Positions 8,749 through 39,794 of a stretch of DNA of 39,794 bases are shown piece after piece. The position numbers were made by a program, and so were the translations under genes. Each line of letters opens with the position of its first letter. Position 1 is the first letter of the stretch. Source of the stretch: Candidatus Mediterraneibacter avicola (GTDB taxonomy: Bacteria > Bacillota > Clostridia > Lachnospirales > Lachnospiraceae); NCBI GenBank assembly GCA_019115385.1, contig DXDR01000002.1, positions 1-39,794 of the forward strand, in the 5' to 3' direction. The notes beneath the pieces were generated by a model. That model was given only the letters and a program-made list of their open reading frames with translations, was not told where the DNA came from and made no database searches.

Positions 8749-11124
8749 ATGAATCAGAAAACTCTGACCAAACTTGAATATAACAAAATTATCGGTCTTC
8801 TGGAAGAGGAGGCCTCCTCTTTCCGCGGGCGCCAGCTCTGCCGGAGGCTGAAGCCCATGACCGATCTGGATAAGATCAATATATTTCAGGAGCAGACCGC
8901 AGCCGCTTATACAAGGATCATCCGCAAAGGACGGTTTTCCTTCGGGGATGCCGCCCCTGTTGAAGAGTCCATGAAACGGCTGGAGATTGGGGGAGACCTG
9001 AGCATTTCCGAGCTGCTGCGTATCTGCCGTCTTCTGAAAAACACCGCACGGGCCAAAGCCTACGGCCGGCACGATACCCAGGAGGATTCCGCCGACTGTC
9101 TGGACGCTTACTTTGACTGTCTTGAGCCGCTGACTCTTCTGGCAAATGAGATTGACCGCTGCATTATTTCCGAGGAAGAGATTGCAGACGACGCCAGCAG
9201 TACCCTGAAGCATATCCGACGGAATATCAACGCTGTCAACGACCGCGTACACGCTACTTTAAACAGCCTCGTAAACGGATCTCTTCGCTCCTATCTGCAG
9301 GATCCGATCATCACCATGCGGGGAGACCGCTACTGCCTTCCTGTAAAATCAGAGTACAGGGGACAGGTACAGGGACTGATCCACGACCAGTCCTCCACCG
9401 GATCCACTCTATTTATCGAGCCTATGGCTGTAGTGAAACTGAACAACGACCTGAAAGAGCTCTACGCAAAGGAACAGGAGGAAATCCAGGCCATCCTCGC
9501 GGACCTGAGCGCACAGGCCGCGTCTTATGTAGAGGCGATACGGGATGATTACCGTGCAATGACAGATCTGGATTTTATTTTTGCAAGAGGAGCACTGGCT
9601 CTCACCATGCGTGCCAGCCGTCCGGTCTTTAATCAGGAAGGGCGCATCCATATCCGCGAAGGGCGTCATCCTCTTCTGGATCCACGCACCGTTGTACCGA
9701 TCACCGTTTCCCTGGGAGATGATTTTACTCTTCTTATCATTACCGGTCCGAATACAGGAGGAAAAACAGTCTCCTTAAAAACTGTGGGACTGTTTGCACT
9801 GATGGGGCAGGCCGGGCTTCACATCCCTGCCGGGGACCGCTCAGAGCTTTCCGTTTTCCGTCAAGTATACGCGGATATCGGGGATGAACAGAGCATCGAG
9901 CAGAGCCTGAGTACCTTCTCCTCCCACATGACCAATATCGTTTCTTTCCTGAAAAAAGTGGACGAACAGTCTCTGGTGCTGTTTGACGAGCTGGGAGCCG
10001 GGACCGATCCTACAGAGGGCGCTGCTCTTGCGATCGCCATTCTCTCTTATATGCATAAGAGAGGCATCCGCACAATGGCCACCACACATTACAGTGAGCT
10101 GAAGGTATACGCCCTCTCTACGGATGGGGTGGAAAATGCATGCTGCGAATTCGATGTGGAAAGCCTGCGCCCCACTTACCGGCTGCTGATCGGCATTCCC
10201 GGGAAAAGCAACGCATTTGCTATATCTGGAAAGCTCGGACTGCCGGAATTTATCATCGAAGATGCCAGAAAACGTCTCAGCGAGCAGGATATTTCTTTTG
10301 AAGATCTGCTCTCCGACCTGGAGGCCAGCCGCCGCACGATCGAACAGGAGCGGGCGGAGATCCAGGCATACCGGAAAGAAACTCAGGAATTGAAAGCCCA
10401 GGCTGAGCAGCGCCGGCAGAAGCTGGAGGAACAGCGCGACCGGATTATCCGGGAGGCCAACGAAAAAGCCAGTGCCATTCTCCGGGAGGCCAAAGAAGTG
10501 GCGGACGAGACAATCCGTAATTTCCATAAATTTGGCAAAGAAAACATTTCCGCAGCCGAAATGGAAAAGGAACGGGAACGTCTCAGACAGAAGATAAAAA
10601 ACACACAGGCAGATGCCGCCGTAAAACCGGTGAAACAGAAAAAGAAATACAAAGCAAGCGACTTCAAACTGGGAGAGTCCGTAAAAGTTCTCAGCATGAA
10701 CCTGACCGGAACCATCGGCTCGCTCCCCGATGCAAGAGGAAACGTAACCGTACAGATGGGTATTCTCCGCTCTCAGGTCAATATCTCCGACCTGGAGATC
10801 ATAGAAGAGCCATCTCCGTATACAGCGAAAAAATTCAGCCGCACCTCAAAAAGCAGCATGAAGATGGGAAAATCACTTACCGTCAGCCCGGAAATCAACC
10901 TTCTGGGCAAAACTGTAGACGAAGCCGTGGCGGAACTGGATAAATACCTTGACGACGCAATCCTGTCACATCTGAACACCGTCCGCGTAGTCCACGGAAA
11001 AGGAACCGGCGCTCTCCGAAAAGGCATCCACGAATACCTGCGGCGCCAGAAACACGTAAAATCCTACCGGCTCGCTGAATTCGGAGAAGGGGATGCCGGC
11101 GTAACGATCGTAGAATTGAAGTAA
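8749..11124 (+). CDS. mutS2: MutS2 (RqcU) ATPase with C-terminal Smr domain
   Basis: At 791 residues this is a full-length MutS2. The core and clamp helices precede a MutS ATPase domain with Walker A GPNTGGKT at 333-340, Walker B LVLFDELGAGTDPTEG and a following TTHYSELK. A long charged coiled coil (about 520-625) leads to a KOW-like segment and the Smr domain (about 713-791). In Smr the HGKGTGALRKG loop is intact, while the usual LDLRG motif reads INLLG. MutS2 suppresses homologous recombination and, as RqcU in Bacillus, splits collided or stalled ribosomes. It sits divergent from the HtrA-like gene and is followed by a hairpin and a two-component system. Confidence 0.97.
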   Translation: MNQKTLTKLEYNKIIGLLEEEASSFRGRQLCRRLKPMTDLDKINIFQEQTAAAYTRIIRKGRFSFGDAAPVEESMKRLEIGGDLSISELLRICRLLKNTARAKAYGRHDTQEDSADCLDAYFDCLEPLTLLANEIDRCIISEEEIADDASSTLKHIRRNINAVNDRVHATLNSLVNGSLRSYLQDPIITMRGDRYCLPVKSEYRGQVQGLIHDQSSTGSTLFIEPMAVVKLNNDLKELYAKEQEEIQAILADLSAQAASYVEAIRDDYRAMTDLDFIFARGALALTMRASRPVFNQEGRIHIREGRHPLLDPRTVVPITVSLGDDFTLLIITGPNTGGKTVSLKTVGLFALMGQAGLHIPAGDRSELSVFRQVYADIGDEQSIEQSLSTFSSHMTNIVSFLKKVDEQSLVLFDELGAGTDPTEGAALAIAILSYMHKRGIRTMATTHYSELKVYALSTDGVENACCEFDVESLRPTYRLLIGIPGKSNAFAISGKLGLPEFIIEDARKRLSEQDISFEDLLSDLEASRRTIEQERAEIQAYRKETQELKAQAEQRRQKLEEQRDRIIREANEKASAILREAKEVADETIRNFHKFGKENISAAEMEKERERLRQKIKNTQADAAVKPVKQKKKYKASDFKLGESVKVLSMNLTGTIGSLPDARGNVTVQMGILRSQVNISDLEIIEEPSPYTAKKFSRTSKSSMKMGKSLTVSPEINLLGKTVDEAVAELDKYLDDAILSHLNTVRVVHGKGTGALRKGIHEYLRRQKHVKSYRLAEFGEGDAGVTIVELK

Positions 11125-11194: not shown

Positions 11195-11896
11195 ATGATT
11201 GGGAAACAGAAGATTCTGATTGTTGATGATGATGAAAATATTGCCGAACTGATTTCGCTTTATCTTACAAAAGAGTGTTTTGATACAAAAATTGTGTATA
11301 ACGGAGAGGACGCTCTGTCGGCATTTGAATCGTACCATCCGAACCTGATACTACTGGATCTGATGCTTCCGGGTATTGACGGCTACCAGGTATGCCGGGA
11401 GATCCGGGCCAAGTCTGCCACGCCGATCATTATGCTTTCTGCAAAGGGCGAGGTGTTTGACAAGGTGCTGGGTCTGGAGCTGGGGGCCGACGATTATATT
11501 ATGAAGCCTTTTGACTCCAAGGAAATGGTGGCCAGAGTTCGGGCCGTACTGCGCCGCTATCAGCCTGTCAAAACCACCGCGGCCCCGGACGAGAAGACCA
11601 AATATGTGGAGTATGACGGTCTGGTGATCAATCTGACCAATTACTCTGTCCTCTGTGACGGGAAACAGGTCGAAATGCCTCCAAAGGAGCTGGAACTCCT
11701 TTACTGTCTGGCCTCCTCGCCGAATCAGGTATTTACACGCGAACAGCTTCTTGACCGGATCTGGGGCTACGAATATATCGGCGATACCCGAACTGTGGAT
11801 GTCCATATCAAGCGTCTTCGGGAGAAGATCAAAGATCATCCTCACTGGAAATTAGGTACAGTGTGGGGGATCGGCTATAAGTTTGAGACAAAATAA
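11195..11896 (+). CDS. OmpR/PhoB-type response regulator
   Basis: The receiver domain (1-120) has the acidic pair at D11-D12, the phospho-acceptor D55 (LLDLMLPG) and the conserved lysine in YIMKPFD. A winged-helix DNA-binding domain follows (about 135-233: PKELELLYCLASSPNQVFTR, then DRIWGYEY, TVDVHIKRLREKI). The length, 233 residues, is typical. GGAGGG lies 10 bases upstream of the ATG; an earlier ATG at 11187 runs into a stop after three codons. The kinase gene begins 17 bases after its stop, so they form a pair. The target genes cannot be told from sequence. Confidence 0.93.
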   Translation: MIGKQKILIVDDDENIAELISLYLTKECFDTKIVYNGEDALSAFESYHPNLILLDLMLPGIDGYQVCREIRAKSATPIIMLSAKGEVFDKVLGLELGADDYIMKPFDSKEMVARVRAVLRRYQPVKTTAAPDEKTKYVEYDGLVINLTNYSVLCDGKQVEMPPKELELLYCLASSPNQVFTREQLLDRIWGYEYIGDTRTVDVHIKRLREKIKDHPHWKLGTVWGIGYKFETK

Positions 11897-27539: not shown

Positions 27540-27558
27540 GAACAGCCTTTATCTACTG

Positions 27559-27587
27559 TGTACAAACAGTCCCAAACAGGGTATAAT
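27559..27587 (+). promoter_or_regulatory. Sigma-A promoter of mtnA
   Basis: TGTACA (27559-27564), a 17-base spacer and a consensus TATAAT (27582-27587) lie 43 bases upstream of mtnA. The site is divergent from the brnQ promoter. Confidence 0.65.
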
Positions 27588-27629
27588 TATTTTATCACAT
27601 GAATTTATCAAAGAGAAAGGAGGATTGAG

Positions 27630-28736
27630 ATGGACAACCAGGCAGCAAACCTGAAGGCAGTAACCCACATCAACAATGTCCGGCTTGCCGAAGACGGAAA
27701 AAGTGTAGTGATCATCGACCAGACAAAGCTTCCGAACACAACGGAATACCTCACGCTCAAAACAGCAGAGGATTTTTACGACGCGATTTTGGATCTGAAA
27801 GTGAGAGGTGCGCCGGCAATCGGCATCTGCGCCGCATACGGCATTGCTGTTCTCGCATCACAGATCGGCACGGATGACTTCGGGGAATTCTTAAAAGAGT
27901 TTCGGAAATACAAAGATTACCTGAATTCTTCCAGGCCAACCGCGGTAAACTTAAGCTGGGCTTTAAACCGTATGGAGCGGACAGTCCTGGATCACGGCGG
28001 CAAACCTGTGGAACAGATCAAGGCTGCTCTTCTTAATGAGAGCCGCAGCATACAGGAGGAGGACATGCAGATGTGCCGGGCTATCTCCGAGTATGGGCTC
28101 AGTCTTATCAAAGACGGCGATGGTATTCTCACCCACTGCAACGCAGGTCCGCTTGCCACTTCCAGATACGGCACAGCTCTGGGCCCCCTTTTCCTGGGGA
28201 AAGAACGGGGCATGAATTTTCACGTGTTTGCTGACGAGACAAGGCCGCTTCTCCAGGGTGCGCGTCTGACATCCTACGAACTGTACAAGGGAGGGATCGA
28301 TGTAACTCTGATCTGCGACAACATGGCCGGCATTGTAATGAAAAACGGATGGGTGCAGGCCTGCCTTGTAGGATGTGACCGTATCGCGGCAAACGGAGAT
28401 GCCGCCAATAAAATCGGCACAAGCGTGGTTGCTGTTCTGGCCAATTACTACAAGATTCCGTTCTATGTATTGGGACCCACATCGACGATTGATATGAACT
28501 GTCCCACAGGGGACGACATTGAGATCGAACTCAGAAGCCCAGATGAGATCCGCACCAAATTTTATGCGGAACCGATGGCATTAAAAGGTGTCTCCTGTTA
28601 CAATCCGGCATTTGATGTCACGCCCGCCGGGCTGATCACCGCTATTGTGACAGAACACGGGATCGCACGGGCTCCCTATGAGAAAAGTCTGAAAGAAATT
28701 TTCAGGAAAAAAGAAAGGGACGCGTTGCACGATTAA
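27630..28736 (+). CDS. mtnA: S-methyl-5-thioribose-1-phosphate isomerase
   Basis: The 368-residue protein keeps the diagnostic residues of MtnA: the RGAPAIG loop at 59-65, the catalytic cysteine C170 in [10 protein letters not shown] and the catalytic aspartate D250 in [11 protein letters not shown]. It also retains NKIGT, which separates MtnA from eIF2B-like relatives. The reaction converts the aldose phosphate from methylthioadenosine (or 5'-deoxyadenosine) to the ketose. AAAGGAGG precedes the ATG. It is followed by a nucleoside-type ABC transporter, which suggests that an imported nucleoside feeds it, though no kinase, phosphorylase or aldolase is in view. Confidence 0.95.
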
Positions 28737-28753
28737 ATGGCAGATGTTATAAT
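28725..28753 (+). promoter_or_regulatory. Sigma-A promoter for the nucleoside transporter genes
   Basis: TTGCAC (28725-28730), a 17-base spacer and TATAAT (28748-28753) overlap the end of mtnA, so the transporter can be expressed apart from mtnA. Confidence 0.7.
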
Positions 28754-28761
28754 ATCTCTTA

Positions 28762-28794
28762 ATAAGCGGATCAGAACTTATAAGTCCCGCTTAT
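28762..28794 (+). repeat. Inverted repeat in the leader of the lipoprotein gene
   Basis: ATAAGCGG (28762-28769) and CCGCTTAT (28787-28794) flank a 17-base segment that contains the palindrome ACTTATAAGT. It lies just after the promoter and before the ribosome site, so it could be an operator or a leader stem. No T run follows. Confidence 0.45.
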
Positions 28795-28821
28795 CACCAA
28801 CTAAAAGGAGGAGTGATACTT

Positions 28822-29976
28822 ATGAAAAAGAAACTTCTGGCAGCAGTTCTCTGCGCCGCAATGACCGCCATGCTTTTTGCAGGGTGCGGAAGCAATGAAG
28901 AGAAAAAGGACAACGGCGGAGCATCAACAGAGGAATCCTCTGACGCTCTCAATATCGCTATCGTATCCAGCCCCAACGGAGTGGACGACGGCTCTTTTAA
29001 TGAAGATAACTACAACGGCGTGCTTGCTTATATTGAAGAGCACCCGGACGCCAAGGTTACCGCGATCCGTGAGGAAACCGGAGTTCCGGCCACCGTTGTT
29101 GAGAAGATCACCGAGATCGCCGGCAGCTACGATGTCGTTGTCTGCCTGGGATTCCAGTGCGCGGGCATCGGACAGGTTGCCCAGGACAACCCGGATGTGG
29201 ATTTCATCCTGGTGGACAGCTATCCTACAGACGCTGAAGGCAATACGGTAGAACTGGACAATGTATACGCAATGCTCTTTGCAGAACAGGAAAGCGGATT
29301 TTTTGCAGGCATGGCAGCTGCGCTTGAGACAGAAAGCGGAAAAGTTGCAGTTGTAAATGGACAGCCTTTCCCGTCCAATGTAAATTATCAGTATGGTTTT
29401 GAGGCGGGCGTAAATTACGCAAACACAAAATACGGCACAACAGCAGAGTGCGTAGAACTCAGCTCCTATGCCGGAGTTTACAACGATGCAAATATCGGCG
29501 GCAACTACACCGGCAACTTCTCTGACGAAGCAACCGGCAAGGTAATCGGCGAAGCTCTGATCAAAGAAGGCTGCGATGTGATCTTTGTTGCAGCAGGGGC
29601 TTCTGGAAACGGTGTATTTACAGCAGCAAAAGAAGCAGGAAATGTTAAAGTGATCGGCTGTGACGTTGACCAGTATGACGACGGAGCAAATGGTGATTCC
29701 AACATCATGCTTACTTCTGTACTCAAATGCATGAGCATCAATGTGGAAAGACAGCTCAATGCGATCGCAGACGGCTCCTTTAAAGGGCAGAATATCACAC
29801 TGATGGCTGACACCGATTCTACAGGATTTGTTAAAGAAGAGGGCAGACATCAGATGTCTGACGACACGGTTTCAAAACTTGACGAGGCATTTGCACTGGT
29901 AAAAGATGGAACGATCGTTCCTCCTTCAAGTGCAGGGGACAGCACTCCTGAAGATTTTCCGGGGCTGAATGACTAA
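28822..29976 (+). CDS. BMP-family nucleoside-binding lipoprotein
   Basis: A 384-residue substrate-binding lipoprotein. The signal peptide has a basic start (MKKKLL), a hydrophobic core and a lipobox LFAGC with C22 as the lipidated residue, then a serine/glutamate-rich linker. The mature protein has the BMP/PnrA fold: DDGSFNEDNYNGV, CLGFQCAGIGQVAQDNPDV, AGMAAALETESGKVA, VIFVAAGASGNGV and VIGCDVDQY. Such proteins usually bind purine nucleosides. The ATG at 28822 is chosen over a GTG at 28813 because AAGGAGGAG lies 8 bases before it. Confidence 0.93.
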   Translation: MKKKLLAAVLCAAMTAMLFAGCGSNEEKKDNGGASTEESSDALNIAIVSSPNGVDDGSFNEDNYNGVLAYIEEHPDAKVTAIREETGVPATVVEKITEIAGSYDVVVCLGFQCAGIGQVAQDNPDVDFILVDSYPTDAEGNTVELDNVYAMLFAEQESGFFAGMAAALETESGKVAVVNGQPFPSNVNYQYGFEAGVNYANTKYGTTAECVELSSYAGVYNDANIGGNYTGNFSDEATGKVIGEALIKEGCDVIFVAAGASGNGVFTAAKEAGNVKVIGCDVDQYDDGANGDSNIMLTSVLKCMSINVERQLNAIADGSFKGQNITLMADTDSTGFVKEEGRHQMSDDTVSKLDEAFALVKDGTIVPPSSAGDSTPEDFPGLND

Positions 29977-29991
29977 CCGCTGATTTTTAAG

Positions 29992-30042
29992 AGGGATGGA
30001 CGGTTCACCCAGAGGTGATGCTGTCCATTCCCTTTCTTTTTT
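29992..30042 (+). terminator. Intercistronic terminator or attenuator after the lipoprotein gene
   Basis: AGGGATGGAC (29992-30001) pairs with GTCCATTCCCT (30023-30033, one bulged T), with an inner TCACC/GGTGA stem, and is followed by TTCTTTTTT. It would lower transcription of the ATPase and permease genes relative to the binding protein. Confidence 0.7.
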
Positions 30043-30063
30043 CAACAAGAACAGGAGTTACCT

Positions 30064-31602
30064 ATGTCGGAAGAATATATTATCGAAATGAGGCATATCA
30101 CAAAAAGATTTCCGGGCATTGTGGCCAACGACGACGTGAGCATCCAGATCAGAAAGGGTGAGATCTACGCCCTGCTGGGCGAGAACGGCGCCGGAAAATC
30201 CACTTTGATGAGTATGCTGTTTGGAATGTACGAACCAGATGAAGGCGAGATCTTTGTCAAAGGAGCAAAGGTCCGCATCACATCACCGAATTATGCGACA
30301 AAACTGAATATCGGAATGGTGCACCAGCATTTCAAGCTGGTATCCAACTATACCGTTGCGGAAAACATTATCATGGGCATGGAGCCTGTCAAAAAATTCC
30401 TCGGTATCTTTCCGCAGGTGGATATCAAAAAGGCCAACCGGGATATCCGCAAACTCTCCGAAGACTATGGGCTGGAGGTTGACCCGGAACAGGTGATCGA
30501 AAAGGTAAATGTCTCCATCCGCCAGAGGGTGGAGATTCTGAAAATGCTTTACCGGCAGGCGGAGATTCTGATCTTTGACGAGCCGACCGCCGTACTCACG
30601 CCTCAGGAAATCGAATTCCTCCTGCAGATCATCCGTAATCTGAGGGACAGCGGAAAAACGATCATCCTGATCACGCACAAGCTGGAGGAGATTAAGCAGG
30701 TGGCCGACCGCTGCGCCATCTTGAACCGGGGAAAGATCATTGATGTTCTGGATGTGGCCTCTACCTCCACCAAGAAGATGGCTAACCTGATGGTGGGCCG
30801 CGAAGTTTCCTTTAACGTCCAAAAAAGCGCTCCCCGTTTCGGTGAGACTGTACTGAAAGTGGAAAATGTAAGCGTACACAACCAGGATCGTTTTGAAGTA
30901 GTAAAAAATGTTTCCTTTGAAGTACACCGGGGCGAAATTTTCGCTATTGCAGGCGTATCCGGAAACGGCCAGGTGGAACTGGCGGACGCGATTGCCGGCC
31001 TGATGAAAATTTCTTCCGGCAAGGTTATTCTCAATGGAAAGGATATTACGAACGAATCCATTCGGAAACGAACAGAGGAAGGCATCTCGTATATACCTGA
31101 GGACCGCCAGGAATACGGACTTGTGCTGGACTTTTCCCTGCGGGACAACCTTGCTTTGAAGTCGTATTACAAAGAGCCTTTTTCCGGGAAAAACGGTGTT
31201 CTTAAAACGGCAGAGTTTGAGAGCTACGCTCAAAAGCTTATCCAGCAGTACGATATCCGAAGCGGCCAGGGAGCTGCCACACAGGTCCGCTCCATGAGCG
31301 GCGGGAACCAGCAGAAAGCGATCGTAGGCCGTGAGATTGAACTTCAGTCTGACCTTATGATCTTTGTCCAGCCCACCCGCGGCCTGGATATCGGCGCCAT
31401 TGAAAATATCCACCGACAGATCATCTCCGAGCGCGACAAGGGGAAAGCCATCCTGCTCATCTCCCTTGAACTGGACGAGATCATGAACTGCGCAGATACG
31501 ATCGGAGTCATTTACAACGGAGCGATAGAGAAGATCGCCCCGGCAGACACACTCACAACCAACCAGGTTGGCGAATTTATGATGGGGGTGAAGCAGAAAT
31601 GA
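30064..31602 (+). CDS. Nucleoside ABC transporter ATPase with two ABC domains
   Basis: This 512-residue protein has tandem ABC domains. The first has Walker A GENGAGKS at 39-46, the signature-equivalent VSIRQRVEILKML and Walker B ILIFDEPTAVLTP. The second has a degenerate P-loop (SGNGQVEL, no GKS lysine), signature MSGGNQQKAIVGREI and FVQPTRGLDIGAIE. This asymmetric arrangement is typical of the RbsA/NupA class. It energises the two permeases that follow. Its stop overlaps the next start (ATGA). Confidence 0.95.
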   Translation: MSEEYIIEMRHITKRFPGIVANDDVSIQIRKGEIYALLGENGAGKSTLMSMLFGMYEPDEGEIFVKGAKVRITSPNYATKLNIGMVHQHFKLVSNYTVAENIIMGMEPVKKFLGIFPQVDIKKANRDIRKLSEDYGLEVDPEQVIEKVNVSIRQRVEILKMLYRQAEILIFDEPTAVLTPQEIEFLLQIIRNLRDSGKTIILITHKLEEIKQVADRCAILNRGKIIDVLDVASTSTKKMANLMVGREVSFNVQKSAPRFGETVLKVENVSVHNQDRFEVVKNVSFEVHRGEIFAIAGVSGNGQVELADAIAGLMKISSGKVILNGKDITNESIRKRTEEGISYIPEDRQEYGLVLDFSLRDNLALKSYYKEPFSGKNGVLKTAEFESYAQKLIQQYDIRSGQGAATQVRSMSGGNQQKAIVGREIELQSDLMIFVQPTRGLDIGAIENIHRQIISERDKGKAILLISLELDEIMNCADTIGVIYNGAIEKIAPADTLTTNQVGEFMMGVKQK

Positions 31603-32747
31603 AAAAATTCTTTGTAAAAATTCTCGGAAACGAGAAGACCCAGAATATTGCCATCCCGCTTTTTTCTATTCTTTTGAGCCTGATCGTGGGAATGATCGTG
31701 ATCGGATCTCTGGGTAAATATCCGCTGACAGCCTATGCCAATCTGCTCCAGGGAAGCGGACTTCTTCCGAAACCCCAGTACTCTGCCTATCAGGGTATGC
31801 TTACAGACTTTACCAGCTTCCTTAATATGATGACTCCCATGCTGTTCGCAGCTCTGGCAGTAGCTGTTGCTCTTAAAGCCGGCCTGTTCAACATCGGCGT
31901 GTCCGGCCAGATGCTGGCAGCCGGATTTGTCGCTACTATCACGGTCGGCTACTCCTCGCTGGCCGCTCCAGTCGCAAAGCCGCTCGTTCTGTTGATCGGC
32001 ATCGCAGCAGGCATGGCGGTGGGCGGCCTGATCGGTTTTTTGAAATATAAATTTAATATCAACGAAGTTGTATCTTCTATTATGATAAATTACATTGTCC
32101 AGTACCTGACAAGCTTTTTCATTAATACAAGATACATAGACGAGATATCCCGCCAGTCCCGGGCCGTCAGCGATGAATCCCGCCTGACGCTTATGAAAGT
32201 GCCGATCGGCAATCTGAAAGTGGACATACCTCTCTGTATCATTCTTGCGGTTCTGGCTGCTGTTGTAATGAAATTTCTTCTGGATCGGACACGGCTGGGC
32301 TTTGAGATCAAAGCTGTTGGAGCCAGCCGGAATGCAGCCCGCTACGCGGGAATCAGCGTAGGGAAGACCATGGTTCTTTCCATGATGATCTCAGGCGCTC
32401 TGGCAGGGCTTGCAGGCGTAACCTATTACATGGGCTATCTTCAGTCCATCCAGCCAAAAGTGCTGGCGTCCACCGGATTTGACGCAATCGCCGTGGCCCT
32501 CCTGGGAAACAGCAACCCAATCGGCATCATCTTCTCTTCCTTCCTTATCACCGGGGTGACCAAAGGAAGCAGCTATATGAGCTCTGCCTCAGGGATTGAA
32601 ACAGAGATCGGCTCCGTGATCGTCGGCCTTATTCTTCTGTTCAGCGCCTGCGGCGCATTTATCCGCTACGAAGTCAAAAAGTGGAAATCTGAGCTGGAAG
32701 AAAAACAGGAAAAGAAATCTGACAACGCCGGAAAGGAGGTGCGCTGA
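31599..32747 (+). CDS. Nucleoside ABC transporter permease 1
   Basis: A 382-residue permease of the BPD_transp_2 type with about nine or ten hydrophobic helices. It has the family segments MTPMLFAALAVAVALKAGLFNIGVSGQML, of which the AGLFNIGVSGQ motif is diagnostic, and ISVGKTMVLSMMISGALAGLAG-like helices (GALAGLAGV). It starts within the ATPase stop codon (4-base overlap) and ends in a 1-base TGATG overlap with permease 2, so the three are translationally coupled. The C-terminal tail is highly charged. Confidence 0.93.
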   Translation: MKKFFVKILGNEKTQNIAIPLFSILLSLIVGMIVIGSLGKYPLTAYANLLQGSGLLPKPQYSAYQGMLTDFTSFLNMMTPMLFAALAVAVALKAGLFNIGVSGQMLAAGFVATITVGYSSLAAPVAKPLVLLIGIAAGMAVGGLIGFLKYKFNINEVVSSIMINYIVQYLTSFFINTRYIDEISRQSRAVSDESRLTLMKVPIGNLKVDIPLCIILAVLAAVVMKFLLDRTRLGFEIKAVGASRNAARYAGISVGKTMVLSMMISGALAGLAGVTYYMGYLQSIQPKVLASTGFDAIAVALLGNSNPIGIIFSSFLITGVTKGSSYMSSASGIETEIGSVIVGLILLFSACGAFIRYEVKKWKSELEEKQEKKSDNAGKEVR

Positions 32748-33706
32748 TGAATACGATTATCATTGACGGTCTGTCGTTTGCCCTGCCGCTCTTTGTCATG
32801 GCTATCGGAGGCATCTACAGTGAGAGAAGCGGCGTCACCAACCTGGCGATCGAGGGTCTCCAGGGATTCGGCGCTTTTGTGGGCGCCCTGTTCGTCGTGC
32901 TCGTGGCAGGAACACAGGGAACAGATTCTCAGACAGTATTTTACCTGTCCTTCCTCTTCGCCACCCTGGGCGGTATGGCCTACGCGCTGCTGCACGCCCT
33001 GCTTTGTGTAAAGTTCAAGGCAAATCAGGTGATCAGCGGCGTTGTCGTAAATATCCTGGCAATGGCTCTGACTGCATTTTTAACGAAACAGATCAATAAA
33101 AGCGTTTTCGGCGCTCCGTCCGACAAATTTCAGCTCGGAGTGTCAACCCGTTTTTCTGTTCCGGTACTGTCAGACATCCCGGTTCTGGGTGCATTTTTCA
33201 CTAATCTGTACCCGTTCGAGATCATCATTATCGTAGTCGCAGTAATCATGTGGTTCCTGCTGTACAAAACCCGCTTCGGACTCCATCTGCGCGCCTGTGG
33301 TGACAATCCCCACGCCGTGGATGCGGCGGGACGCAATGTAGGGCAGATCCGCACTGTGGCAGTTATGATCTCTGGAGCCCTCTCGGGAATCGGCGGCATG
33401 TGTTTTGCCTACTCGATCTCAGCCAAATTTTCCGAGAGCATCTACGTGGGCTACGGCTACCTGGCGATCGCGGCTCTGATCTTCGGGAACTGGAAGATCC
33501 TGCCTACTCTGGGTGCCTGCCTGCTCTTTGGATTTGCCCGCTCCGCCGGCTATCAGCTGGTTCAGATCCTGGAAAAGCCAAGCAGTTACTCCGATCTGGT
33601 AATGATCCTTCCTTATCTGCTCACGCTGCTCCTTCTGATTTTCTTCTCCAAGTACAACCGCTCGCCGCGGGCTCTGGGCGAAATCTATGATAAGGGGAAA
33701 CGGTGA
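32747..33706 (+). CDS. Nucleoside ABC transporter permease 2
   Basis: A 319-residue partner permease, shorter than permease 1 as usual for this class. It carries IGGIYSERSGVTNLAIEG, the counterpart of the permease 1 motif, and LHLRACGDNPHAVDAAGRNV before a GALSGIGGMCFAY helix. With permease 1 it forms the membrane channel. The cupin gene starts 2 bases after its stop. Confidence 0.93.
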   Translation: MNTIIIDGLSFALPLFVMAIGGIYSERSGVTNLAIEGLQGFGAFVGALFVVLVAGTQGTDSQTVFYLSFLFATLGGMAYALLHALLCVKFKANQVISGVVVNILAMALTAFLTKQINKSVFGAPSDKFQLGVSTRFSVPVLSDIPVLGAFFTNLYPFEIIIIVVAVIMWFLLYKTRFGLHLRACGDNPHAVDAAGRNVGQIRTVAVMISGALSGIGGMCFAYSISAKFSESIYVGYGYLAIAALIFGNWKILPTLGACLLFGFARSAGYQLVQILEKPSSYSDLVMILPYLLTLLLLIFFSKYNRSPRALGEIYDKGKR

Positions 33707-33707
33707 T

Positions 33708-34241
33708 ATGGAAAAGATATATAACCCGGACACAGCGGCAGAGATGTTGTCCGCCGAAGATGTCATACAGGCTCTGGGACTGACTCCTCTCGCCGGGGAA
33801 GGCGGCATGGTGGCAGAAACGTATTCCAGCGAAGAGCTGTACGAGAACCGCCGCTGCGGATCCGCTATTTATTATATGCTGACAGGAGATGCGTTTTCCC
33901 ATCTCCATATGCTCTCTGCTGACGAGATCTGGCATTTCTACTACGGGGATCCGGTGGAACTGATCCAGATCCGGGACTGCGACGGACAGAAGACCGTTTC
34001 TGTTCTGGGTACAAATCTGACGAAGGGGGAGAGACCGCAGATCCTTGTTGAAAAGAATTCCTGGCAGGGGGCCCGGCTGCTCCCGGGAGGGAAACACGGC
34101 TTTGCCCTGCTGGGTACGACCATGTCTCCTTCCTATCTGGAAGGGGATTTTATAAAAGCGGACAGAGAAAAACTGCTCCGCCGGTTCCCGCAGCACCGGG
34201 CGGACATCGAAAAAGTAACCGGAAACCTTATTTACCGCTGA
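33708..34241 (+). CDS. Cupin of the DUF985 (YML079-like) family
   Basis: A 177-residue single-domain cupin. The family segments are GGMVAETYSS, RCGSAIYYMLTGDAFSHLHML, SADEIWHFYYGDPVELI and VEKNSWQGARL. The histidines of HLHML and of IWHFY line the barrel. Members have a sugar- or nucleotide-binding-like pocket but no settled enzymatic role. The ATG at 33708 comes right after the permease stop, which argues for expression as part of the transporter operon; AAGGGG lies 10 bases upstream. Confidence 0.85.
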   Translation: MEKIYNPDTAAEMLSAEDVIQALGLTPLAGEGGMVAETYSSEELYENRRCGSAIYYMLTGDAFSHLHMLSADEIWHFYYGDPVELIQIRDCDGQKTVSVLGTNLTKGERPQILVEKNSWQGARLLPGGKHGFALLGTTMSPSYLEGDFIKADREKLLRRFPQHRADIEKVTGNLIYR

Positions 34242-34245
34242 CAGC

Positions 34246-34271
34246 GCAGCCGGGCAGGATTGCCCGGCTGC
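34246..34271 (+). terminator. GC-rich hairpin after the cupin gene
   Basis: GCAGCCGGGCA (34246-34256) and its exact complement (34261-34271) form an 11-base-pair stem with a 4-base loop. The following sequence is not a T run, so termination may be partial. Confidence 0.55.
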
Positions 34272-34318
34272 TGCATTCATCAGTTATATTTTCAATTATA
34301 AAAATCAGGAGGTAATCC

Positions 34319-35479
34319 ATGCGAAAAAATTTAACCCGGGGCGCGGCCATACTTGGCGCCGGCTTTATCTCCCACTCCCACGCTGAGGCTCTCAGATACT
34401 GCGGCGTCAGAATATGCGCCGTAGTAGACCGCACAGAAGATGCCGCACGGGCCTTTGCAGAAAAATGGGGGATTGAAACATACGGCACATCGGAAGAACT
34501 CCTCTTTTCAGATGAAGTTTCCTCCGTTCATGTGTGTACACCGCCCCACACTCACTATCGAATCGTAAAGAAACTTTTAAATGCAGGAAAGCATGTCCTG
34601 TGTGAAAAACCGCTATGCCTGGTTCCGGAGGAGGCGGAGGAACTCTCCGCCCTGGCTGATTCCCTGGGGCTTACGTGCGGCATCAACTTAAATGTTCGCT
34701 TTCACCAGATGTCCGACAGGATGAAAGAACTTGTCTGCGGCAGGGATTTCGGCTCCGTCCGTCTCGTCCACGGACAGTACCTCCAGCAGTTCCACCTGCT
34801 GCCCTGTCCTTACGGCTGGCGGTATATCCCCGAGGCCGCAGGTCCCATGCGGGCAGTAACCGAGATTGGAACGCACTGGTTTGATATTATCCAGTATATC
34901 ACTGGTCAAAGGATCACAGAGGTGTCCGCACTGTTCGGGAACTTTCACCCTCAGCGCGTCGTCCGGGACGGGGTTATGTATTCCCCGGCTATCAAAGATG
35001 GAGAAAAGACTAAAGCCCTCAAAAAGGGAAACAACGGCGCCCTGGTTGATTCCTGTGACAACAAGATTTGCAGAGAGGCAGAAGAGACGGTCACCGTAAC
35101 TTCAGAAGACGCGGCGTTGATCACATTCCGGCTTTCGGGCGGCGCCATAGGCTCTGTAACGCTTTCCGAGGTGTCTCACGGATATTCCAATTATCTTTCC
35201 TACGAGATCACCGGAGACCATATGACTGCCGGTTGGAATTCTCAGGAAAATAACTCTGTGTATTTCAGTTCCGGGTCCGGGCAGAAGACAGTGGAAAGCG
35301 ACGGATTTGGGAACGGATTTAACGATTCTTTCCGGCGCCTGATACAAAGCTTCTACTTTGGTTCCGCAGATACCGGTCTGCCGTCCTGTCCCACTTTTCA
35401 GGAAGGTGCGGAAATTGTCCGTATATGCAGCGCTGTATATGAAAGCGCGGTAAAAAGCGGAGGATGGGTGCAGGTGTGA
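34319..35479 (+). CDS. Gfo/Idh/MocA-family oxidoreductase
   Basis: The 386-residue protein has an N-terminal Rossmann fold (ILGAGFISHSHAEAL, then CAVVDR), the CTPPHTHYRIVKKLLNAGKH strand-helix and the catalytic EKPL motif (LCEKPLCLV). The C-terminal half (GTHWFDIIQYITGQRITEV and later beta strands) is the substrate-binding sheet. Family members are NAD(P)-dependent sugar, inositol or sugar-nucleotide dehydrogenases; the substrate here is unknown. GGAGG lies 7 bases before the ATG. The nucleoside transporter and mtnA upstream hint at a pentose-derived substrate, but that is inference. Confidence 0.9.
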   Translation: MRKNLTRGAAILGAGFISHSHAEALRYCGVRICAVVDRTEDAARAFAEKWGIETYGTSEELLFSDEVSSVHVCTPPHTHYRIVKKLLNAGKHVLCEKPLCLVPEEAEELSALADSLGLTCGINLNVRFHQMSDRMKELVCGRDFGSVRLVHGQYLQQFHLLPCPYGWRYIPEAAGPMRAVTEIGTHWFDIIQYITGQRITEVSALFGNFHPQRVVRDGVMYSPAIKDGEKTKALKKGNNGALVDSCDNKICREAEETVTVTSEDAALITFRLSGGAIGSVTLSEVSHGYSNYLSYEITGDHMTAGWNSQENNSVYFSSGSGQKTVESDGFGNGFNDSFRRLIQSFYFGSADTGLPSCPTFQEGAEIVRICSAVYESAVKSGGWVQV

Positions 35480-35500
35480 TGCACCTATCCTCCCCCTTTT
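35461..35500 (+). terminator. Terminator overlapping the end of the oxidoreductase gene
   Basis: AGGATGGGTGCA (35461-35472) pairs with TGCACCTATCCT (35480-35491; one G-T wobble) around a 7-base loop that contains the stop codon. CCCCCTTTT follows. Confidence 0.65.
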
Positions 35501-35517
35501 GCAACGCACCTCGATTC

Positions 35518-35597
35518 CCCGATTTCCCGTCCCCTGAATGCAGAAAATTCAAATGAATTTTCTCTTCGCATTCAGTTTTCCAGGACGGGGAAACGGG
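35518..35597. repeat. Nested inverted repeat of about 80 bases
   Basis: Four successive complementary pairs are nested. They are CCCGATTT with AAACGGG (35518-35525, 35591-35597, one extra A), CCCGTCC with GGACGGG (35526-35532, 35583-35589), CTGAATGC with GCATTCAG (35534-35541, 35568-35575), and AGAAAATTCA with TGAATTTTCT (35542-35551, 35554-35563). The whole would fold into one long interrupted hairpin on either strand. Confidence 0.7.
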
Positions 35598-35791
35598 TTT
35601 TCGGGTCTTTCTCATCCACCGTGCCAGCCAAAAAAAACAAACTACACAAAACCAGTATGGTAATCAGGTGGTAGCCATCTCTTAAAAAGAGCGGTATTGC
35701 GCTATTTTCCAATCTTTTCAGATGTTCAAAATCCTCATTTTCGCGCCAAACTATAACTCTTTACTCGTTTTAGACCATTCTGAACAGTCTT
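35598..35791. other. Non-coding stretch, no gene seen
   Basis: With the terminator and nested repeat before it, this completes a 312-base gap after the oxidoreductase gene. A weak minus-strand hairpin (AGCG/CGCT followed by CTTTTT, about 35684-35702) may terminate the small gene that ends at 35792. Nothing else is recognised. Confidence 0.5.
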
Positions 35792-36034
35792 TCATCCATC
35801 GCCATCCTTAAGGAGTCGTGGATAACAATTCAGAACATCCTCAATCCCTGTCATGTCGTTCTCCACAGGATCAAGCAGAACTGCCACAAAGCCATGCTCT
35901 CCTAAGTCCTTTACCATGAGGATTGCCTCGACTCTGTTCAGTATTTCCTGCGGTAGTCTGTACTTCTTACGGAACAGACCGTTTACACTCCTAAGAAGCA
36001 CCAACTGACTTTTTGTATATATTTTGATGTACAT
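35792..36034 (-). CDS. Unknown 80-residue protein
   Basis: I do not recognise this small protein. It starts with a basic segment (MYIKIYTKSQLVLLRSVNGL) that contains a possible helix and ends acidic (LLDPVENDMTGIEDVLNCY). There is no signal peptide or membrane helix. A very strong ribosome site (AAGGAGGTG) about 8 bases upstream of the ATG and sensible amino-acid composition support it as a real gene. It is isolated, beside the relic tRNA-Lys segment. Confidence 0.6.
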   Translation of the reverse strand: MYIKIYTKSQLVLLRSVNGLFRKKYRLPQEILNRVEAILMVKDLGEHGFVAVLLDPVENDMTGIEDVLNCYPRLLKDGDG

Positions 36035-36308
36035 TCTTCTTCACCTCCTTCTGCTACATCAAAAACATAATATACGTTTTAAAAATCTACAAAAAAATAA
36101 CAGCAGGTATCTTTCCAGACACATCTGCTGTCAACTCTGCAATTAATTTTCACTATCAACTTGGACTATTTATTTTGCTCGCGACGAACTCGCGACGGAT
36201 TTCGCGCCACATTTTTGTTTCCCTTCCAATTTTTCTTTTCGCCTTGCTCTGACTTGTTCTTTTTCTGTCGCAAGCATGGAAACCGCGCAAATCCGCCATT
36301 TGTGGCAG
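36035..36308. other. Non-coding stretch upstream of the unknown small gene
   Basis: It holds an AT-rich leader before the small gene and a stem at 36100-36131. The rest (36132-36308) shows no gene I can support. In the model of integration at tRNA-Lys, this is the original chromosomal flank downstream of the tRNA. Confidence 0.5.
36091..36131 (-). terminator. Minus-strand terminator-like hairpin
   Basis: On the minus strand ACAGCAG (36125-36131) pairs with CTGCTGT (36100-36106) and is followed by TATTTTTTT (down to 36091). It would stop minus-strand transcription coming from the tRNA-Lys side before the small gene. Confidence 0.55.
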
Positions 36309-36405
36309 AAAAAAACCGCCGTCCCCGCGGCTCGCAATGTCCGCAAAAACAGCGATTTTCAAATGCGCGATCAGGGGTTCGAACCCTGGACACCCTGATT
36401 AAGAG
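36309..36405 (-). repeat. Left direct repeat: tRNA-Lys 3' fragment plus terminator
   Basis: It includes the tRNA-Lys sequence from the anticodon loop to the 3' end (36364-36405) and the terminator (36309-36332: AGCCGC/GCGGTT stem and T run). Beyond 36405 the sequence diverges from the tRNA, so the 5' half is missing and this copy cannot make a tRNA. It differs from the right copy only at three bases just outside the tRNA 3' end. Confidence 0.9.
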
Positions 36406-36417
36406 ACATTTCATCCA

Positions 36418-38814
36418 TTATGCCAGTCCGTGCTCTTCCAGCCATACCATCCAGGTGTTCTTCCCTTCCTGCATTTTCCGTGCCCGCACAGTGAACTCCA
36501 GGATCGTAAGTCCTGTAAATACGAGGAACAGGATCAGCAGGAAAATGAGGCAGCCCCGGATACTTCCCCCGCCGCTTATGGCGCTGCGGAACGCTTTCAC
36601 CGTATAGGTAAACGGTACCCAGCCGTGAAGATACGGCACAAATGATCCTGACAGTTCATAAGGGTATGTCCCCACGGAACCTGCCAGCTGGATCACCATG
36701 AAGATCAGCATCAGGAAGCTTCCAACGCGCCCCAGCAGGCTGGTGAAGAAGTACATCACCGACATGAATGCAAGGGACGCCGCGCACGCTGTCAGGACTG
36801 TCTTTCCCATTTCCACAGGTATAAAACCATCGAATATATGCAGTGCGCCGATCATAACTACTGCCTGGAGCACTGCCGTCAGATAGAGCACAGACGCCTT
36901 GCTGATCCACCAGCGGAAACCGGATTTCATCTGCCCGGCAAAACTGGTCAGCGGATACATCAGACTGAACGCGATACAGCCGACCCACAAGCCTACGGAC
37001 ATCATATACGGCGCCATAGCATGGCCGTTGTCGGCCACCTCCGTAATCTGTGTCTCTTCCGCATCTATCGGTGCGGCAAACATATCCGCCGCCTGATCCG
37101 ATGTGTTCGTCTCCAGGATCTGCTCCGCTCCGCTTCCCAGTTCCTTTGACAGCGTCTCCGCGCCTTCCGAAACCTGCCTGATCCCATCGCCTAGTTCTCC
37201 GCTGCCGTCAACGAGTTGTCCCGCACCGCTGCTGATCTGGCCGGCTCCATCTGTTAGTTTCGCCGCGCCTTCCGTCAACGATTTGCTGTTCGAGGTAAGC
37301 TGCCCGGTTCCAGAGACAAGCGTATCCGTTCCATCTTTCAGCTTCGCGCTTCCCTGTGCCAGCTCTCCCAGACCGCTGTCCAGATCCGCAGCTCCTTTCC
37401 GGAGCGCCGATGTTCCCTGCTTCTGAAGCTGATCCGCCCCTGATGCAGCATTGGAAATTCCACCCGCCAGCGCCGGCGCCTGTTCCGCCAATGCGGAAGT
37501 GCCGGTCTGAAGCCGCCCTATCCCGTTCTTAAGGGAATCTGCACCACTCTGTACCGCGGAAATGCCGTTCTGAAGATCCGGGATCTCCGCTGCAATCTGC
37601 GCGCTCCCGTCCGCCGCTTCATCGACACCATATGTGTAGGCGGAAACACTTGCAGAAAATGTGTCCGCCTGCTGCTGAACTGCCGCGATCTGTGCCCGCA
37701 CTTCCTCCGGCACGCCTTCCTCTCCGGCGAGTGCCGAAAGCGCCTGACTGATCCCGGCCGCCCCGTCGCGCAGCGACTGGGAACTGGAAGCAGCAGACTG
37801 CAGGCCGGAACTAAGCGCATCAGCACCGGTCTTCAGGCCGGCCGCCCCTTCAGACAGAGATGCAATCCCGTCCGAGAGCTGCTGCGCGCTGTCACCTAAT
37901 GAAGCCGCGCCGTCATTCAGCGCATCCGCCGCATCGGGAAGGGCCGCCGCCTCCGCATTCAGTTCGGACAGTCCGGCATTGAGCATAGTCATGTTATCAT
38001 CTACATCCGCCGCGCCAGCTGCCAGATCAGCACCTCCTTTCTGCGCACCATTTACACCACTGTCCAGTGCATTTGCACCGCTTTGCAGCTCTTCTGCCCC
38101 TGCTGCAACCGCACTGGCTCCGTCTGTATACCGGCCAATCCCCACTTCCAGCTCCCGGCTTCCGTCCACAAATACTAAGGCACTGTCTGAAAGGGCCTGC
38201 AGATTGTCGGTAATCGTCTGATTTCCGTCGGCCAGCTGATCCGTTCCGGTTTTCAGTTCACCCGAACCATCCGCCGCTTCCTGCATTCCGTCACCCAATT
38301 CCGCAAGCCTGCCGAACAGAACTTCTGTATACGTTTTTGTAACCTCTTCCCGTACCGAGCTCTCCAGTTCTTTCATCGCTGTCTCGCTCATCTTGGACGC
38401 AATGTAGTTCGTTCCCGGATTCGTTTCATAAGCCAGCGTCATCTTCTCCGGATGCGCGTCTGTCAGCGTTGAGGCATGGGCCGAAAAGTCCTCCGGTATG
38501 GTGATAACCATATAGTACGTGCCGTCCTCAAGGCCCTTCCGCGCCTCCGTCTCTGACGGAAACTGAAAGTCCAGAGAATCGTTCTTTTTCAGTTCCTCCA
38601 TCAACGTTCCGCCAATGTCCAGCTTCTGATCTTCATAGGTGACCGGCACGTCATGGTTGATGACCGCCACCGGAAGTTTATCGATATTCCCGTATGGATC
38701 CCACATGGATCCAAGGAAAAGTGTGGTATAGATTGTCGGGATCGCGATGACCGCTACTGTAACAATCAGTAAAATCTTATTTTTGAACAGCCTGTGCCAT
38801 TCCTGTCTCAGCAT
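36418..38814 (-). CDS. YhgE/Pip-family membrane protein
   Basis: A 798-residue protein with the full YhgE/Pip layout. A membrane helix near the N-terminus (about 13-33) is followed by an extracytoplasmic domain (PVAVINHDVPVTYEDQKL, TYYMVITIPEDFS). A long region (about 165-575) then shows many LxxG-spaced heptad repeats such as LADGNQTI, LQSGANAL, LSDGIASL and LKDGTDTL. About five membrane helices end the protein. Relatives include the lactococcal phage infection protein Pip and type VII secretion-associated EsaA-like proteins; the role here is unknown. AAGGGG lies 10 bases before the ATG. Its stop lies 12 bases from the left tRNA repeat, so it fills the element tightly. Confidence 0.92.
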   Translation of the reverse strand: MLRQEWHRLFKNKILLIVTVAVIAIPTIYTTLFLGSMWDPYGNIDKLPVAVINHDVPVTYEDQKLDIGGTLMEELKKNDSLDFQFPSETEARKGLEDGTYYMVITIPEDFSAHASTLTDAHPEKMTLAYETNPGTNYIASKMSETAMKELESSVREEVTKTYTEVLFGRLAELGDGMQEAADGSGELKTGTDQLADGNQTITDNLQALSDSALVFVDGSRELEVGIGRYTDGASAVAAGAEELQSGANALDSGVNGAQKGGADLAAGAADVDDNMTMLNAGLSELNAEAAALPDAADALNDGAASLGDSAQQLSDGIASLSEGAAGLKTGADALSSGLQSAASSSQSLRDGAAGISQALSALAGEEGVPEEVRAQIAAVQQQADTFSASVSAYTYGVDEAADGSAQIAAEIPDLQNGISAVQSGADSLKNGIGRLQTGTSALAEQAPALAGGISNAASGADQLQKQGTSALRKGAADLDSGLGELAQGSAKLKDGTDTLVSGTGQLTSNSKSLTEGAAKLTDGAGQISSGAGQLVDGSGELGDGIRQVSEGAETLSKELGSGAEQILETNTSDQAADMFAAPIDAEETQITEVADNGHAMAPYMMSVGLWVGCIAFSLMYPLTSFAGQMKSGFRWWISKASVLYLTAVLQAVVMIGALHIFDGFIPVEMGKTVLTACAASLAFMSVMYFFTSLLGRVGSFLMLIFMVIQLAGSVGTYPYELSGSFVPYLHGWVPFTYTVKAFRSAISGGGSIRGCLIFLLILFLVFTGLTILEFTVRARKMQEGKNTWMVWLEEHGLA

Positions 38815-38848
38815 TGTCTACTGTCCCCTTTCTTTTTGCAACATTAAT

Positions 38849-38860
38849 TCTATTAATAGA
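38849..38860. promoter_or_regulatory. Candidate TetR operator palindrome
   Basis: TCTATTAATAGA is a perfect 12-base palindrome between the yhgE -10 box and start codon. Its position suits repression of yhgE by the divergent TetR protein. Confidence 0.4.
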
Positions 38861-38867
38861 TATCGTG

Positions 38868-38896
38868 TTGATTTTTTAAGCATCCTGAATTATAGT
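38868..38896 (+). promoter_or_regulatory. Promoter of the TetR gene
   Basis: TTGATT (38868-38873), a 17-base spacer and TATAGT (38891-38896) point to tetR, leaving a leader of about 95 bases. Confidence 0.6.
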
Positions 38897-38917
38897 AAAA
38901 TCATAAAAAAGATACAA
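38889..38917 (-). promoter_or_regulatory. Promoter of the yhgE gene
   Basis: On the minus strand TTGTAT (38912-38917), a 17-base spacer and TATAAT (38889-38894). The -10 boxes of this and the tetR promoter overlap, so the two probably exclude each other. Confidence 0.65.
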
Positions 38918-38937
38918 CCATTAATCTAACACTGCTC

Positions 38938-38961
38938 TGTCTGTTAATGGATAATCAGACA
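38938..38961. promoter_or_regulatory. Second candidate operator upstream of tetR
   Basis: TGTCTG (38938-38943) and CAGACA (38956-38961) are inverted 6-base arms separated by 12 bases in the tetR leader. Confidence 0.35.
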
Positions 38962-38998
38962 ATGTGGTGTCTATTATTTTTAAAGGAGGGAATGTTTC

Positions 38999-39592
38999 AT
39001 GTCAAAAAATATGGACCGGCGGGTTCGCAAGACAAGAGCCCAGCTCCGTCAGGGACTGGCCGAACTTCTGAAAGAAAAGAGTTTAAAAGAGATCACGGTC
39101 AAAGAACTCGTAGAAAAAGTGGACATCAACCGTTCCACTTTCTATCTGCACTATGCGGATATCTATGACATGATGGAAAAGATTGAAAACGAACTGACCG
39201 GAGACATCGAAGATCTGATCCATACCCATCCGGTAAGTCCGTTCAACGAAGACAGCTTTCCGTTCATCGAGGATATTTTTTCCATCCTCGCGGAAAACCG
39301 GGATATCTGCGCCGCTCTCCTGGGTCCCAACGGTGATATCTCTTTTCTGCACCGGATTGAGAATATCCTCTCCGAGCACAGCCTGAACGCCCTGAAAGAA
39401 ACATTTCCGGAGAAAATGGATGATCTGACATACTACTACGCCTTCTGTCTCTCCGGCTGTATCGGCCTGGTCAAGGCCTGGCTGTCAGATGGATCTTCCG
39501 TAAGTCCCCAGCATATGGCCGAACTTACATTTAAGCTCATCATGAACGCACTGAGGGGGTTCTATCCAGACTTTTCCGTAAGACATTCCTGA
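38999..39592 (+). CDS. TetR/AcrR-family transcriptional regulator
   Basis: A 197-residue regulator. The N-terminal helix-turn-helix domain (about 10-60) reads LKEITVKELVEKVDINRSTFYLHYADIYDM. The C-terminal ligand domain has the pattern of the TetR_C_8-like group (ILAENRDICAALLG, YYYAFCLSGCIGLVKAWL), which often accompanies YhgE genes. GGAGGG lies 8 bases before the ATG. It is divergent from yhgE with overlapping promoters, so control of yhgE and itself is likely. Confidence 0.9.
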   Translation: MSKNMDRRVRKTRAQLRQGLAELLKEKSLKEITVKELVEKVDINRSTFYLHYADIYDMMEKIENELTGDIEDLIHTHPVSPFNEDSFPFIEDIFSILAENRDICAALLGPNGDISFLHRIENILSEHSLNALKETFPEKMDDLTYYYAFCLSGCIGLVKAWLSDGSSVSPQHMAELTFKLIMNALRGFYPDFSVRHS

Positions 39593-39686
39593 TATTTACG
39601 GGGAAAATCTTCTCTGCGCTCTTTCTCTGCTTCCATTCGCAGCGCACACTTCGATTCCGCGCTCCGCGCTGCTCATTGCTTCACGC

Positions 39687-39710
39687 AAAAAAACCGCCGT
39701 CCCCGCGGCT
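39687..39710 (-). terminator. Terminator of tRNA-Lys
   Basis: On the minus strand AGCCGC (39705-39710) pairs with GCGGTT (39692-39697) and runs into T residues down to 39687. It lies 32 bases past the tRNA 3' end. Confidence 0.7.
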
Positions 39711-39783
39711 CGCAATGTCCGCAAAAACAGCGATTTCTAAGTGCGCGATCAGGGGTTCGAACCCTGGACACCCTGATTAAGAG
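39687..39783 (-). repeat. Right direct repeat: 3' part of tRNA-Lys plus terminator
   Basis: This copy matches 36309-36405 at 94 of 97 positions. Identity to the left copy stops at 39783, the first base of the anticodon loop, whereas the tRNA here continues with GTCAGGTGCTCT to the window edge. Confidence 0.9.
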
Positions 39784-39794
39784 TCAGGTGCTCT
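39742..39794 (-). tRNA. tRNA-Lys (anticodon CTT), 5' part outside the window
   Basis: Reading the minus strand, the anticodon stem CCTGA/TCAGG encloses the loop CTCTTAA, giving anticodon CTT. The T arm is CAGGG-TTCGAAC-CCCTG, followed by the 3' acceptor strand ATCGCGC and discriminator A at 39742. CCA is not encoded. The acceptor 5' strand and most of the D arm lie beyond 39794. Confidence 0.9.

Follow-up and report, generated by a model that had tools for sequence, protein, structure and literature searches.

Background

Elements that carry no integrase but are flanked by attachment (att) sites and moved by a neighbouring element are known as cis-mobilisable elements (CIMEs), and they are numerous according to the parts consulted of two reports (PMC5704250, PMC7563491). 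In those parts of the latter, CIMEs of Streptococcus salivarius measure 1.2-13 kb and 215 CIMEs are counted at tRNA-Lys(CTT) among 303 genomes of Streptococcus agalactiae, so that the principle considered here is already known at this tRNA gene. A second comparable case is the ssrA locus of Dehalococcoides, where 15 islands lack an integration module and are possibly cis-mobilizable in the view of the authors, as given in the sections consulted (PMC3146451). Here we describe a two-gene unit, consisting of yhgE and tetR, at the tRNA-Lys(CTT) gene of Candidatus Mediterraneibacter avicola. The window, by which we mean the whole 39,794-nt stretch that was analysed, is one complete contig (C13) of a 2.58-Mb genome in 98 contigs. 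We consider it probable (roughly 0.76) that the unit is a small integrase-free element that acts like a CIME and is moved by an integrase specific for the anticodon loop of this tRNA. A previous sequence-only reading had called an integrase-free unit this small unusual, which is too strong a word given the sizes and numbers cited above.

The likeness to CIMEs, as the same parts of the reports present them (PMC7563491, PMC5704250), lies in the flanking att-like sites, the lack of integrase and transfer genes, the accumulation next to an element with an integrase at the target gene's 3' end, and the similar size. The layout for mobilisation in cis is also present, with an integrase-bearing island in tandem with the unit in Mordavella massiliensis and a remnant of such an island in the window. 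The unit differs, however, in that it holds no trace of an integrative and conjugative element (ICE) or integrative and mobilisable element (IME) gene, its proximal arm looks chromosomal, no relaxase was found in the proteins tested of its neighbour island, and it is nearly identical in several species and in Mordavella. It also lies nearest to the tRNA, whereas in the S. salivarius arrays described in the consulted part of that source decay is always most advanced in the elements most distant from the target gene. On these features the unit appears to work like a CIME, with its membership of the class incomplete. The Dehalococcoides ssrA islands are likewise tandem islands bounded by copies of the 3' end of an RNA gene, but the consulted sections of PMC3146451 describe the serine recombinase DsiB and tmRNA, in contrast to the tyrosine integrase and tRNA-Lys of the present case, where moreover the cargo is a single regulated membrane-protein gene. 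No report of such a unit was found in a limited literature search naming Mediterraneibacter, which is no proof of absence.

Searches that start from integrase genes easily miss units without one, and tandem arrangement is often the sole ground on which such units are said to move. The present unit occurs in different species as near-identical copies that hardly vary in length and stand either before or behind a helper island. These copies provide a natural record of movement, and a two-gene unit is a model small enough for testing.

Structure of the unit

A repeat search of the window gave direct repeats at 36309-36408 and 39687-39786 that match at 96 of 100 bases. Counted from the first base of the anticodon loop, 36309-36405 and 39687-39783 are identical at 94 of 97 bases; the sequence-only reading had described exactly this repeat and this starting point, and both held, the homology beginning on the minus strand at CTCTTAA, which is the anticodon loop of tRNA-Lys(CTT). 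We judged a 97-base repeat at 97% identity to be far beyond chance, and other species have the two copies as well. The proximal att-like copy (39687..39786, minus strand, first loop base 39783) comprises the tRNA 3' half, a tail and a terminator, and its core is identical at 44/44 bases in the four carriers compared. It belongs to an intact tRNA-Lys(CTT), of which the window holds the 3' part (39742..39794, minus strand; Rfam RF00005, 37.1 bits, cut at the 5' end). Comparison of contigs revealed that the last 131 bases of contig C68 are identical to the right end of C13, and C68 has the complete tRNA-Lys(CTT) gene at 11695-11767. Since the 5' part, which had been expected beyond 39794, was found on the overlapping C68, the tRNA gene at the right copy is complete; the left copy (distal; 36309..36408, minus strand, core from 36405, recognised by the repeat match) has the 3' half and tail only. 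ARAGORN called no tRNA within the window, including at the distal copy. The unit is thus bounded as a CIME would be: a direct repeat starting in the anticodon loop stands at either end, one copy as part of an intact tRNA and the other as a 3' half.

The contig break at the tRNA, with an overlap of 131 nt here and 127 nt in Ca. M. norwichensis, might be taken for alternative paths in the sample; we did not count it as such, since tails common to several species explain the overlaps equally well. An assembly chimera is unlikely because two of the carriers (Clostridium sp. Marseille-P3244 and Mordavella massiliensis An582) are named strains and one copy lies inside a 2.6-Mb contig.

Measured core to core, the unit spans 36406-39783 (3378 bp). 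In agreement with what had been read, yhgE and tetR are the only genes enclosed, and the remaining open reading frames (ORFs) of at least 80 aa overlap these genes or the repeat. The yhgE gene (36418..38814, minus strand) encodes a YhgE/Pip-type membrane protein of 798 aa that matches the N- and C-terminal YhgE/Pip models (TIGR03061, E 2.2e-60; TIGR03062, E 1.1e-53), heptad repeats (TIGR03057) and PF12698. The tetR gene (38999..39592, plus strand) encodes a TetR-type regulator of 197 aa (PF14278 TetR_C_8, E 1.4e-22; PF00440 under the cut-off). Between tetR and the proximal core, the proximal arm (39601..39686) resembles the native tRNA-Lys downstream sequence of relatives and is unlike the island arm. 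At the other end a spacer of 12 nt (36406..36417), also seen earlier, separates the yhgE stop (36418) from the distal core and is identical in five carriers except for one A/G. The displaced tRNA tail contains a terminator hairpin (36309..36364, minus strand; -26.8 kcal/mol, z -5.66) with a T run after it; as this terminator lies past the end of yhgE and is oriented like that gene, transcription of yhgE probably stops there. There are no integrase, conjugation or mobilisation genes in the unit, and the integrase that an island at a tRNA gene would have of its own is found only in the neighbour island.

Recent transfer between species

The same-genus relatives with names are Ca. Mediterraneibacter species and allied names. 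A YhgE search of 99 genomes gave, besides this genome, three copies at 97-100%, in Marseille-P3244 (G055), Ca. M. norwichensis (G050) and Ca. M. merdigallinarum (G053), in each of which yhgE is followed after 12 bases by a distal tRNA-Lys half. Mordavella massiliensis An582 was added as fifth carrier by a scan of named genomes. Compared with the window, the copies have a nucleotide identity of 99.5% in Marseille-P3244, 99.2% in norwichensis, 97.9% in merdigallinarum and 99.2% in Mordavella. The core-to-core length is 3378 bp in four of the five carriers, including this genome; the merdigallinarum unit measures 3473 bp, including 14 bases cut off by the contig end, with the extra 95 bp in the proximal arm.

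At fourfold sites of yhgE, Marseille-P3244 differs from the window at 3/444, norwichensis at 7/444, Mordavella at 5/441 and merdigallinarum at 15/428 positions, and the corresponding values for tetR are 0/82, 1/82, 0/82 and 1/82. Fourfold-site divergence within the unit is hence 0-0.035, versus 0.25-0.70 in neighbouring genes of the three carriers with comparable neighbours (Marseille-P3244, 0.53-0.70 in 5 genes; norwichensis, 0.25-0.58 in 10 genes; merdigallinarum, 0.46-0.63 in 4 genes). For Mordavella, 0 of 10 flanking genes were found in the stretches compared, hence this carrier gives no neighbour-divergence control. The near-identity of the unit indicates that it moved recently between species, and to Mordavella.

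Borders and the displaced native flank

The borders of the unit are sharp. For the six pairs that can be formed from four carriers, the proximal core and tail are 98-100% and the unit body 99-100% identical, versus 56-89% for the distal tail and just 19-40% for the DNA 99-250 bp past the distal core. The 36 bp preceding the proximal core have 31-38% identity in the three pairs with Mordavella, because there an island end replaces the tRNA 5' half.

Beyond its distal core Mordavella has native tRNA-Lys downstream sequence, as judged from 12 genomes in which the sequence right behind an intact tRNA-Lys aligns with the Mordavella flank over 154-190 bp (72-81%); the flank aligns also with the end of an element array in a same-genus genome, G010. 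An intact tRNA-Lys bounds the array on its proximal side, and the native flank lies past the distal copy in Mordavella; insertion is thus seen to restore the tRNA and displace its old 3' end, as for islands at tRNA genes. A relative without the unit (G022) has its tRNA-Lys across two contig ends, then the native tail, an OpuAC-type transporter operon and the genes of the window in the same order. The host flank of the window, up to a dehydrogenase-like gene (34319..35479, plus strand), is syntenic with it (G022:C86; 82% over 27548-34981 and 79% over 35100-35500), whereas the transporter operon is missing here and an island remnant abuts the dehydrogenase gene. Together, the near-constant length, the sharp borders, the differing DNA past the distal copy and the relative without the unit bear out the earlier claim of integration at tRNA-Lys with att-like repeats.

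Besides the carriers, 3 of 58 same-genus genomes (G010, G013 and G040) have second partial tRNA-Lys copies, which belong to other junctions. In G013 and G040 (L113 ~1165; L114 ~8878-8959) the displaced tRNA-Lys end begins in the T arm and not in the anticodon loop, pointing to a putative integrase of different specificity at this gene.

The neighbouring island and other elements at the site

In Mordavella the order is tRNA-Lys, a 9.4-kb island, core, unit, core and native flank. The island encodes a Cch-like helicase and a 413-aa tyrosine integrase (PF00589), whose gene adjoins the core; most of its other proteins have no family. Its helicase resembles Cch1 (NF047345, 197.6 bits, below the cut-off of 700), which is a likeness to cassettes of the staphylococcal cassette chromosome (SCC) type. 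SCC cassettes use Ccr serine recombinases at rlmH; the neighbour island differs in using a tyrosine integrase at a tRNA gene. G010 has an inovirus-like prophage, an island and the native flank, in this order; its island is 97% alike that of Mordavella over 5 kb on the tRNA side and the integrases are 82% identical, the Cch-like replicative helicases (L148 5515-7320 and L101 5546-7378) being 34% identical. The prophage of G010 (L100 12413-19650; Xer-like integrase of 296 aa, Zot, Rep_trans) sits at the same anticodon-loop core, directly before the island.

In the window, 35509-36308 is a 0.8-kb scar made of both ends of the 9.4-kb island, about 8.3 kb between them having been deleted. The tRNA-side end (35799..36308) is 97.2% identical to the Mordavella island over 35799-36408 and 96.6-97.7% to that of G010, and has a truncated ORF (35792-36034, minus strand), cut from 127 to 80 aa. 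An internal deletion joins it to the integrase-side end (35509..35799), which is 90.8% identical to Mordavella sequence beside the integrase gene. The order here is tRNA, unit, core and island remnant, so the island stands before the unit in Mordavella and after it in the window. Marseille-P3244 has the unit without an island beside it, and island-like sequence (67-83%) adjoins the unit in norwichensis and merdigallinarum. Immediately ahead of the core the unit and both islands have GT, in place of the GA of the tRNA; the common GT is weak evidence that one recombinase family may serve unit and islands.

Proposed mechanism and its alternatives

We propose that the unit entered tRNA-Lys(CTT) through site-specific recombination in its anticodon loop. 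The incoming unit would supply its own tRNA 3' half and terminator, restoring the tRNA gene, and the previous 3' half would be pushed to the far end. A helper island shares this site and stands beside the unit, whole or as a remnant, and its tyrosine integrase would be the recombinase. This integrase would cut the cores of the unit, a circle would form, and unit and island would most likely travel as one composite circle. Both orders of island and unit could arise, because a composite circle with two equivalent cores would yield either, as would separate insertions of the island into either core. Later the island may have left (Marseille-P3244) or decayed (this genome), where the unit now looks stranded.

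Several results weigh against this proposal. No Pfam relaxase was found in the 13 Mordavella-island and 7 G010-island proteins tested, so conjugative mobilisation of the composite is unproven. None of the 18 integrase-domain matches of this genome, some of which are pieces of one gene, is near the integrase of either island (best long match about 24% identity), and at E <= 1e-60 the island integrase has matches in 2 of 146 genomes, this one not among them. The expected circle junction had 0 matches in viral contigs. The proximal arm of the unit is chromosome-like and unlike the island arm, and its acceptance by an arm-binding integrase is thus in doubt. Only 4 of the 58 same-genus genomes, this one counted, carry the unit, and some carriers may share a single insertion, for example norwichensis and merdigallinarum, whose distal flanks are alike (98% over 219 bp); their units differ by 2% plus 95 bp.

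The sequence-only reading had left three origins side by side: a satellite mobilised in trans, a decayed island, and recombination between two tRNA-Lys loci. Mobilisation by the recombinase of another element fits best. Action in trans by some recombinase other than that of the island is possible, as both sites of the unit look core-only. The unit might then move alone, by means of any recombinase cutting this core, such as the Xer-like integrase of an inovirus-type prophage, and both the prophage of G010 at the same core and the island-free unit of Marseille-P3244 would agree with this. We nevertheless consider movement without the island unlikely: a search of 99 genomes at E <= 1e-40 gave the Xer-like integrase of that prophage in 1, which was not the present genome, an island remnant or island-like sequence adjoins the unit in three carriers of the genus, and the inovirus end does not have the GT common to unit and islands.

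Less likely still would be that an ordinary chromosomal segment spread through uptake of DNA and crossed over within the tRNA half and terminator, both of them conserved. The transfers are indeed recent, and core and tail are conserved between species, so that about 44-100 bp of homology would be available at each end. Yet in the six pairs compared the borders fall on the 44-bp core, the proximal neighbour in Mordavella is an island end and not the tRNA 5' half, and outside the carriers the second partial tRNA-Lys copies listed are confined to the three genomes mentioned, at other junctions. That the repeat was made by tandem duplication or by recombination between two tRNA-Lys loci would seem to be almost certainly wrong, although its two near-identical copies in direct orientation are what either event would leave. 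In all five carriers the distal copy is without the tRNA 5' half, with the same yhgE end before each, and the unit is far less diverged than its surroundings; a unit between two complete tRNA-Lys genes, which would have spoken for simple duplication, was not seen. The carriers thus contradict tandem duplication, which we rejected, and the two-locus origin offered earlier has no support.

Origin of the unit

No ICE or IME gene is left inside the unit. In merdigallinarum the tRNA half, tail and arm match the native tRNA-Lys flank of G056, which does not carry the unit, at 97.3% over 225 bp, and the proximal arm of the window is 82.5% identical over 80 bp to a native-like flank (L059). The other four carriers are without 95 bp of the arm, the gap lying between short repeats; merdigallinarum keeps this stretch (L098 14499-14588; L109 9150-9239 in G056). 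One tentative and rather doubtful explanation is that a chromosomal gene pair became a mobile cassette by bracketing and not by decay of an island. The native tRNA-Lys site would have served on one side and an island core, inserted at a secondary site by the yhgE end, on the other. A unit with such core-only, chromosome-like sites would move with any anticodon-loop-specific integrase and could precede or follow the helper, which is what one would expect of a circular composite whose two cores are equivalent. The native arm favours the bracketing of a resident pair over island decay; the native flank, behind which the pair would have stood, is still whole in merdigallinarum.

Related tetR-yhgE pairs (74-85% nucleotide identity) occur at other places in other genomes, one behind a gene that by eye resembles tuf and others beside tRNA-Glu or tRNA-Gln. 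In Ca. M. vanvlietii and Claveliimonas monacensis, a pair of 92-94% identity lies near tRNA-Lys behind an island-end remnant of 60 or 225 bp, with no distal core. The pair is thus linked to this tRNA more than once, and the island-end remnants next to these pairs speak for the unit having possibly arisen from an ICE or IME through deletion. The sequence after yhgE in Claveliimonas was considered as a trace of the secondary site, but its resemblance to the core is loose and it was not counted as evidence. More distant tetR-yhgE pairs directly adjoin the tRNA-Glu and tRNA-Gln genes (L105 12850-12922; L157 12524-12594).

Cargo and matches outside the genus

According to the consulted part of PMC4999554, phage infection of Enterococcus faecalis depends on a YhgE/Pip protein, and the family has members with this role in other Firmicutes. 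A YhgE/Pip cargo with its regulator could alter the cell surface of gut bacteria, and a role in phage adsorption or envelope stress is our guess. A defence function was rejected, the weak PADLOC matches in the yhgE stalk and in one zinc-ribbon-like island protein being judged spurious. No convincing phage family was found in yhgE or tetR, with one weak head-protease match in yhgE and matches of unknown function for tetR.

Carriage of the unit on phages or plasmids was rejected as well: no phage or plasmid record had most of it, and blastn gave only short pieces, nearly all from the tRNA/att part, with one piece of 138 bp under a YhgE gene on a Roseburia plasmid. In viral contigs no yhgE relative was confirmed, and the helper integrase gave just one weak 29% piece. 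Two unannotated human gut phage records of 10-11 kb (MT836479.1 and MT836273.1) have tRNA-Lys att-like sequence near one end.

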